A program made the position numbers and the translations under genes. 42,963 nt of DNA. Origin: Ignavibacteriae bacterium HGW-Ignavibacteriae-2 (lineage in GTDB: Bacteria > Bacteroidota > Ignavibacteria > Ignavibacteriales > Melioribacteraceae). Below the pieces are notes generated by a model. It had not been told where the DNA came from, searched no databases, and saw only the letters and a list, made by a program, of their open reading frames with translations. The stretch's first letter is position 1, and the number at the start of each line of letters is the position of its first letter. Location: positions 1,705 through 44,667 of the forward strand of contig PGYT01000020.1 of the NCBI GenBank assembly GCA_002839805.1, in the 5' to 3' direction. Below are positions 35,018 through 35,664 of this stretch, in pieces.

Positions 35018-35118
35018 TTTTTCTCCAAATCTCTCAAGATTTAAATTCAGCGATATATTGAATCACAATAAATCTATTTTTATAACCGGTTTTGTCCGGT
35101 CAATAATCTAATTAACTG

Positions 35119-35191
35119 AGCTGACGACCGGGATTGAACCGGTGACCTCATCCTTACCAAGGATGTGCTCTACCAACTGAGCTACGTCAGC
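35119..35191 (-). tRNA. tRNA-Thr (anticodon GGU)
   Basis: Acceptor GCTGACG pairs fully with CGTCAGC, the D arm is GCTC/GAGC, the anticodon stem CATCC/GGATG holds loop TTGGTAA (GGT), the T arm is CCGG/CCGG around TTCAAT, and the discriminator is T. CCA is not encoded. It lies 37 bases from tRNA-Gly. Confidence 0.96.
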
Positions 35192-35228
35192 TTTTCAATC
35201 ATATAATCAATATTTTTAGAACTATTTG

Positions 35229-35302
35229 AGCGGGAGACGGGATTCGAACCCGCGACCAACAGCTTGGAAGGCTGTGACTCTAGCCAACTGAGTTACTCCC
35301 GC
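35229..35302 (-). tRNA. tRNA-Gly (anticodon UCC)
   Basis: Acceptor GCGGGAG pairs with CTCCCGC, the anticodon stem ACAGC/GCTGT holds loop CTTCCAA (TCC), the T arm GCGGG/CCCGT encloses TTCGAAT, and the discriminator is T. All arms are intact and CCA is not encoded. Its 5-prime half is duplicated in the broken copy at 35345-35418. Confidence 0.96.
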
Positions 35303-35308
35303 TTATAA
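35275..35308. repeat. 34-base direct repeat, copy in tRNA-Gly
   Basis: These 34 bases (the first part of tRNA-Gly, to the end of the D arm, plus six bases upstream) recur without mismatch at 35391-35424. The offset between copies is 116 bases. Confidence 0.95.
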
Positions 35309-35344
35309 TTTTTCAATTTTTATCAGAACTTTAAACGAAATTGT

Positions 35345-35418
35345 TTCATTTATCACTTCTTGAACTCGCGACCAATCCCGTTGAACGGGATGACTCTAGC
35401 CAACTGAGTTACTCCCGC
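35345..35418 (-). pseudogene. Truncated tRNA-Gly copy with altered anticodon arm (UCA)
   Basis: Starting at 35418 the minus strand repeats tRNA-Gly exactly through the acceptor 5-prime strand and D arm. It then has a different anticodon arm, ATCCC/GGGAT around GTTCAAC, placing TCA at positions 34-36, followed by the same variable region TGGTC and GCGAGTTC. After that it diverges: the T stem cannot pair (GCGAG with AGTGA) and there is no CTCCCGC acceptor 3-prime strand. The perfect anticodon stem suggests it came from a real tRNA sequence or by recombination between two tRNAs rather than by random decay. As written it cannot form an aminoacyl acceptor, so I call it a pseudogene. Confidence 0.8.
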
Positions 35419-35424
35419 TTATAA
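35391..35424. repeat. 34-base direct repeat, copy in broken tRNA
   Basis: This is the second perfect copy of the repeat at 35275-35308. It covers the intact 5-prime part of the truncated tRNA and six upstream bases, showing that the duplication extended beyond the tRNA itself. Confidence 0.95.
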
Positions 35425-35581
35425 AAACTTCAATACATAAAAAACTATTTTTTTTAATGCTTGAAACAATTTCCGGAAAATTATTTTTCCAGATATATAA
35501 TATTTATTTCTAAGCGTTAAAAAATCAACGAAGTTTGAATAAAAAAGGGTTTATTACTCTTCTTCATCGATTTCAAATTTG

Positions 35582-35664
35582 TGGGCAGGGAGGGAATCGA
35601 ACCCCCTCAGGCTTAGCCAACGGATTTACAGTCCGCCCCAACTCTCCAGCTTTGGCGCCTGCCC
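35582..35664 (-). tRNA. tRNA-Tyr (anticodon GUA)
   Basis: This is an 83-base class II tRNA. Acceptor GGGCAGG pairs with CCTGCCC, anticodon loop CTGTAAA gives GTA, a long variable arm follows, the T arm is GGGGG/CTCCC-like around TTCGATT, and the discriminator is A. CCA is not encoded. It is the first RNA gene after the promoter at 35707-35737. Confidence 0.95.

Follow-up and report, generated by a model that had tools for sequence, protein, structure and literature searches.

The DNA analysed here, hereafter the window, is a stretch of 42,963 nucleotides from contig PGYT01000020.1 of Ignavibacteriae bacterium HGW-Ignavibacteriae-2. Its minus strand carries a tRNA cluster in the order tRNA-Tyr, a tRNA-Gly fragment, tRNA-Gly(UCC), tRNA-Thr, a 55-aa ORF and tRNA-Trp; the ORF between tRNA-Thr and tRNA-Trp is, judged by eye, presumably rpmG. 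ARAGORN places the cluster's upstream gene, tRNA-Tyr(GUA), at 35581..35664, the intact tRNA-Gly(UCC) at 35228..35302 and the downstream gene, tRNA-Thr(GGU), at 35118..35191. The fragment (35424-35362, minus strand) is a 5' copy of tRNA-Gly(UCC) including six upstream bases, and the intact gene is its parent. It begins with the leader TTATAA (35419..35424), common to fragment and intact gene by sequence comparison, and continues with 28 identical bases comprising the 5' acceptor strand and the D arm up to the anticodon arm (35391..35418). Instead of the anticodon arm it has a palindrome, ATCCCGT-TCA-ACGGGAT (35375..35391), so that the 15 anticodon-arm bases CAGCCTTCCAAGCTG of tRNA-Gly are swapped for TCCCGTTCAACGGGA. 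The variable region and 5' T-stem (TTGGTCGCGAGTTC, 35362..35375) follow; this 3' flank, TTGGTCGCG.GTTC, is retained with one mismatch as far as C56 of the T-loop (35362), where the copy stops. A spacer and leader (35303..35361) separate the fragment from its parent. The match between the two has an E-value of 3.5e-13 and is therefore not due to chance. The earlier note's description of a truncated tRNA-Gly duplicate that exactly repeats six upstream bases (28 plus 6 identical bases) and lacks its 3' third thus stands. The window holds this single 5' fragment upstream of the intact gene, with no downstream tandem units carrying a 3' end, and no GIY-YIG ORF was found in the fragment's unit within the window.

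ARAGORN does not call the fragment as a tRNA, and an Rfam search at the gathering threshold does not report it. The earlier note had correctly seen a perfect stem with TCA in place of the anticodon arm and had read it as five pairs around an anticodon; the stem has seven pairs, not five, and TCA is the whole of a 3-base hairpin loop rather than part of a 7-base one. It had also recognized that the molecule cannot form an acceptor stem, which agrees with the absent 3' third and with a fold that contains none. The TCA does occupy the anticodon place, from which a tRNA-Gly(UCA)-like molecule reading UGA had been proposed. In fragments of relatives, found without a sequence pattern, the loop reads TAA, ACA, CTTG, CGT or AATTCA. 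Stop codons were counted in ORFs of at least 120 aa, not all of which need be genes. In the loci fetched from the same genome outside the window (84,025 bases, some overlapping) TGA ends 12 of 52 such ORFs, next to 27 TAA and 13 TAG. Within window positions 420-42894 it ends none of 41 (38 TAA, 3 TAG), which may reflect a bias of this ribosomal-protein region. The proposal is unsupported because the loop is variable, an acceptor stem is impossible and TGA serves as a stop, and we leave it next to no probability. The anatomy itself, with neither a complete cloverleaf nor a 7-base anticodon loop, refutes a UGA-reading tRNA-Gly(UCA).

The arm does not come from another intact tRNA, a source of simple recombination suggested earlier: neither it nor any TCCCG-N3-8-CGGGA arm occurs in the 33 tRNA genes of this genome. 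Nor is the fragment missing from relatives, since the same kind was found in many genera. DNA of the tRNA cluster was matched in all 58 genomes compared (own included), and we inspected it in 49 loci of relatives (L006-L054). At least 14 of the 49 carry, by eye, tRNA-Gly or tRNA-Thr fragments with a palindrome in or near an arm (L006, L017, L026, L029, L035, L040, L041, L042, L044, L045, L047, L048, L051 and L054). A GIY-YIG ORF begins directly after tRNA-Gly in six loci (L040, L042, L043, L044, L045 and L054); all six ORFs match a GIY-YIG profile built here from 12 ORFs, and in L043 no fragment was seen beside it. The exact Gly form, AGTCATCCCG-N2-10-CGGGATTGG, was found in 9 of 164 genomes of the order, with none for the reversed control. 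Removing G125, a chance match in coding DNA (L133, same stretch as L086), leaves 8 of 164. A scan for this form in one genome per species (84,980 species) yielded 23 stretches. Two, L086 and L105, were dropped as chance matches in coding DNA, and the remaining 21 fall in tRNA-Gly fragments (16 inspected, five on contigs identified by their length as already inspected). Their record titles name Ignavibacteriales, Ignavibacteria, Melioribacter, Chlorobi(ota), Bacteroidetes, KSB1 and Zixiibacteriota.

Like fragments recur at tRNA genes of many isotypes, both in the order of the organism and in records of other phyla, singly or in tandem and with or without a small GIY-YIG ORF per unit. In L101 five pseudo-tRNA-Gly units with a period of 96 bp, the first lacking its 5' end, stand ahead of the intact gene, and a KSB1 contig (L093) has two such units upstream and three downstream of it. 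Units of tRNA-Asp plus GIY-YIG repeat with a period of 315 in L108 and units of tRNA-Leu plus GIY-YIG with a period of 450 in L109, while in L110 three units, each a 5' tRNA-Pro fragment, a palindrome and a GIY-YIG ORF, precede the intact tRNA-Pro. A tRNA-Ala array of 4 x 109 bp consists of units without an ORF, and further arrays lie at Arg, Thr, Glu, Cys, Met, Val, Pro, Asn and Asp tRNAs. At a tRNA-Met (L157:1-366) each of two upstream ORF-less units contains three different TCCCG...CGGGA palindromes. Downstream tandem units carrying the tRNA 3' end are also present in relatives (e.g. L222, L232, L234). In L222, L232 and L236 every downstream unit repeats, by eye, a hairpin and T run resembling an intrinsic terminator past the tRNA 3' end, so these arrays are arrays of terminator-like sites too.

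To obtain an unbiased sample we surveyed all tRNA genes detected in the organism's own genome (G000) and in two single-contig relatives (G048 and G035), using the loci fetched around them together with stretches of the window and L127. RF00005 gave 32, 43 and 43 genes, and the ARAGORN sets of 33, 43 and 43 were used. Pieces of the same tRNA were sought within 1,100 bp on each side, on the tRNA strand only, with other tRNAs masked and E up to 0.02. Such pieces adjoin 3 of 33, 14 of 43 and 7 of 43 genes respectively, 24 of 119 in total, a few of them near the threshold (e.g. tRNA-Ser in L240, 12 bases, E 0.013); with the tRNAs reversed, the search found pieces at 0 of 119. The three cases of the own genome are the tRNA-Gly of the window, a tRNA-Asp with the palindrome TCCCGATACATCGGGA in the anticodon arm, and a tRNA-Met 3' piece of 14 bases. 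The window fragment is linked to the wider system by its architecture, by this tRNA-Asp companion in the same genome and by the relatives. A GIY-YIG ORF lies within 700 bp of 0 of 33, 4 of 43 and 4 of 43 surveyed genes, a single ORF accounting for two of the last four. The majority of the 24 cases therefore have none nearby.

In the own genome six of the 33 tRNA genes (Thr, Glu, Met, Ala, Ser and Phe, on contigs C92, C40, C12, C41, C102 and C122 of G000) lie within 300 bp of a contig end, where we estimate about 0.7 to be expected, and tRNA-Cys and tRNA-Ile are absent among the 33. Unresolved repeats beside tRNA genes would produce both the excess and the two missing tRNAs, and the survey count for the own genome may be low.

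The break points were mapped on pieces of 70 distinct tRNA genes from all loci and compared with an even spread over 72 positions. Of 92 downstream piece starts, 12 lie exactly after C56 (p about 7e-9), and of 53 downstream piece ends, 10 lie exactly at it (p about 3e-9). In the survey alone (23 tRNA genes) downstream pieces start at C56|57 in 7 of 27 cases and end there in 3 of 11. Upstream pieces, the kind found in the window, stop at the anticodon arm's left edge in 18 of 74 cases (p about 2e-12); 7 of 74 end within one base of C56 and 3 of 74 exactly at it (p 0.08), with 0 of 16 within one base in the survey. An impression gained by eye, that upstream fragments universally end at C56, is contradicted by these counts. 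The breaks are not independent: de-duplication merged tRNA sequences only where they were identical, and some of the matches are between different isotypes. At the gap, 89 of 116 chained fragment pairs have a perfect stem of 6 bp or more, a count that includes cross-matches and repeated chains of the same unit.

Inserts in the T-loop were searched for as the tRNA's own six bases up to C56 and its eight bases from position 58, separated by a gap of 8 to 60 bases. Fifteen distinct inserts were found, in eight isotypes plus Trp. A short perfect hairpin starts 14 of the 15, and 11 consist of two successive hairpins, mostly TNCC-xxx-GGNA twice; by eye, a single longer hairpin makes up the Trp insert. 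Covariation was assessed in the nine inserts of 22 bases (without position 57), leaving out two inserts of 19 bases, one of 37 and three of 45. All 72 of 72 cells pair, 11 with changes on both sides. None of 500 shuffles reached the pairing or the covariation score and slid versions scored lower throughout, the number of pairs with both-side changes was reached by 5 of 500, and the number of further pair types is ordinary (111 of 500). As a pattern, the double hairpin was found behind GTTC in 19 of the 395 genomes of the phylum, with none for the reversed pattern and none in the own genome. Of ten double-hairpin loci inspected, eight have, by eye, a tRNA-like 3' end directly after the hairpins, and three match a tRNA from their own locus exactly; L275 and L278 have no tRNA context.

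This conserved pairing would be expected if fragments and hairpins were co-transcribed with the tRNA and released by its processing as small RNAs or stabilizing structures. GIY-YIG ORFs and fragments on the tRNA strand, the only strand covered by the fragment search, fit such a role, as does the annotation of RttR over E. coli repeats of like T-loop anatomy. We nevertheless regard a functional RNA as unlikely. Presence is patchy, the exact Gly form being confined to those eight genomes of the order, the window fragment folds no better than its shuffles (z -0.65), the further pair types are unremarkable and palindromes with the same stem are found away from tRNAs.

The anticodon-arm palindrome TCCCG-N3-8-CGGGA has 9 sites in the own genome against 1 for its reversed control. 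It exceeds the control in 57 of 58 genomes, at most by 128 to 0 and in G040 by 14 to 10, the exception being G006 (1 vs 1); therefore it is not confined to tRNA fragments. ARAGORN found a tRNA in 5 of 20 palindrome stretches fetched from G055 and G029, which were picked partly for tandem spacing, and same-stem palindromes also lie in other DNA away from tRNAs. REP-like and Rickettsia-type palindromic elements are short, dispersed, GC-rich and present in many copies. The palindromes described here are likewise short, GC-rich and numerous, yet many of them stand in for tRNA arms or lie at a single point in the T-loop. We rejected genome-wide REP elements as the sole explanation, as the palindrome is rare in this genome, commoner in relatives, and its replacement of an arm at the arm's boundaries is left unexplained.

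A wider form of this idea needs no nuclease: tRNA genes would be passively duplicated in tandem or by slippage and decay, and REP-like palindromes would be inserted or converted in the neutral DNA. The genome-wide excess of the palindrome, the upstream ends that are not sharp at C56 and the lack of a nearby GIY-YIG ORF at most surveyed arrays speak for it. It accounts poorly for replacements that respect arm boundaries, for downstream inserts exactly at C56|57 in many isotypes and for the concentration of GIY-YIG ORFs at tRNA genes described below, and we give it a low probability.

GIY-YIG ORFs were sampled as the best PF01541 hit in each of the 30 genomes with the best E-values among the 58, the own genome not included. 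A tRNA gene lies within 500 bp in 16 of these 30 loci, where tRNA density leads us to estimate about 1% to be expected. The 16 may be low, as contig ends cut six of the 30 loci to less than 3,000 bases. In 14 of the 16 a fragment of the same tRNA lies close to the ORF; L057 has none, and L072 was left out because its match falls within another tRNA gene. All fetched loci together contain 86 distinct GIY-YIG ORFs, a set that includes loci fetched for their tRNAs and copies inside arrays. Of these, 42 lie within 700 bp of a tRNA, every one on the tRNA's strand, 26 after and 16 before it. The tRNA-adjacent ORFs are minimal domains of about 80-100 aa. Three sampled ones match PF01541, one of them also T5orf172, and the nearest solved chain for one tested ORF is the UPF0213 protein 1ywl, a weak match (E 1.7e-4). 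In L132, L100, L104, L119, L075 and L089 the GIY-YIG ORF has its first Met codon 0-8 bases past the tRNA 3' end, so that tRNA 3' processing would yield a nearly leaderless mRNA. Two loci of different genera, L212 and L245, have tRNA-Ser(UGA) with upstream GIY-YIG arrays, which may reflect descent or repeated homing. The own genome has three PF01541 hits, all on contigs without a tRNA match, and the ORF present in relatives' units is absent from that of the window.

A close counterpart in anatomy lies in E. coli K-12, where tyrV is followed by three 178-bp units. At the end of each are the 3'-terminal 19 bases of tRNA-Tyr, and before these stand a T-stem-like AAGGTTCG and an insert bearing hairpins (by eye). 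A further 19-base piece lies between tyrT and tyrV, and RttR and tpr are annotated at the repeats. These repeats were reportedly described long ago; our literature searches found no paper on them. Like them, the downstream arrays of relatives are tRNA copies split in the T-loop by hairpins, and the window fragment shares isotype and strand with the adjacent tRNA and has its break in the T-loop (C56). The E. coli case differs in being one locus, in having no GIY-YIG gene annotated there and in breaking one base later (57|58). Unlike its 3' fragments downstream, the window has a 5' fragment upstream and a palindrome in the anticodon arm.

The available text on the phage T6 GIY-YIG enzyme SegB reports cleavage within tRNA genes, enhanced by the motif RAWTSGAAC (23 of 83 sites), and a tandem amplification of tRNA-Tyr that requires the enzyme's active site, with homologous recombination (PMC13096335). 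We read RAWTSGAAC as the reverse complement of the T-loop GTTCSAWTY. As with this free-standing homing endonuclease of phages T4/T6, the GIY-YIG gene lies among tRNA genes, and tRNA and nuclease are amplified in tandem. SegB differs in being a phage enzyme and in amplifying a full-length tRNA, and that text makes no mention of palindrome-armed fragments (PMC13096335). The accessible part of PMC1564403 contains no mention of tRNA adjacency, and the titles and abstract openings searched, with the subscription literature mostly outside the search, gave no description of GIY-YIG genes with tRNA-fragment arrays in bacterial chromosomes.

Partial copies of tRNA genes also commonly arise by mobile-element integration, according to the available text of PMC9897764, and the fragments share this likeness. 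They depart from those integration fragments in forming tandem units close to the intact gene with arms overwritten by hairpins (PMC9897764). In the arrays inspected the tandem fragments are separated from the intact gene by tens to hundreds of bases, which leaves no room for an integrase gene between them, and replacement of the 3' half would not give 5' fragments upstream. We therefore consider the scar of an attachment site used by an integrase-driven element very improbable. Among the fallbacks of the earlier note were such a scar and debris of recombination between two tRNA genes; together these come close to the reading we prefer.

That reading, in which we have about even confidence, is that the window fragment is a non-functional 5' relic of tRNA-Gly left by a segmental duplication that was seeded by breaks in tRNA genes, with SegB-like GIY-YIG nucleases as the probable cause of the breaks. 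Acting in cis or in trans, such a nuclease would cut tRNA genes, preferentially in the T-loop. Recombinational repair would then duplicate the cut segment, as for SegB and the tRNA-Tyr of phage T6, and selection would keep one intact tRNA. The other copies would be left with broken T-loops and palindromic arms, neither tRNAs nor good targets for cutting, and one ORF-less unit would be all that is left in the window. The weakest parts of this model are the anticodon-arm palindrome, since cutting alone does not explain how a palindrome replaces an arm, and the lack of sharp ends in upstream fragments, to which that of the window belongs. The missing GIY-YIG ORF in the window's own unit, the own genome's PF01541 hits away from tRNA matches, the palindromes found away from tRNAs and the lack of a nearby GIY-YIG ORF at most surveyed arrays also speak against it.

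With slightly less confidence, we propose that these arrays belong to a hitherto undescribed class of satellite elements that parasitize tRNA genes in Ignavibacteria, KSB1, Zixibacteria and related bacteria. The autonomous units would carry a minimal GIY-YIG nuclease, and non-autonomous ones would be bare tRNA fragments. Both would be marked by structure-conserved hairpins, namely the anticodon-arm palindrome and the double mini-hairpin at C56|57, and would spread by T-loop breaks that always leave one intact copy, and the class would have an old, isolated relative in the E. coli tyrT repeats. tRNA genes are mostly regarded as quiet integration sites. Here, in contrast, up to a third of one bacterium's tRNA genes (14 of 43) adjoin their own broken copies, many of them hairpin-marked and partly linked to a family of nucleases that in phages is responsible for cutting and amplifying tRNA genes. 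This could place the E. coli tyrT repeats in a family and offers a testable origin for tRNA fragments, and it suggests a nature for some minimal GIY-YIG genes whose role is unknown, namely that of mobile elements targeting tRNAs.
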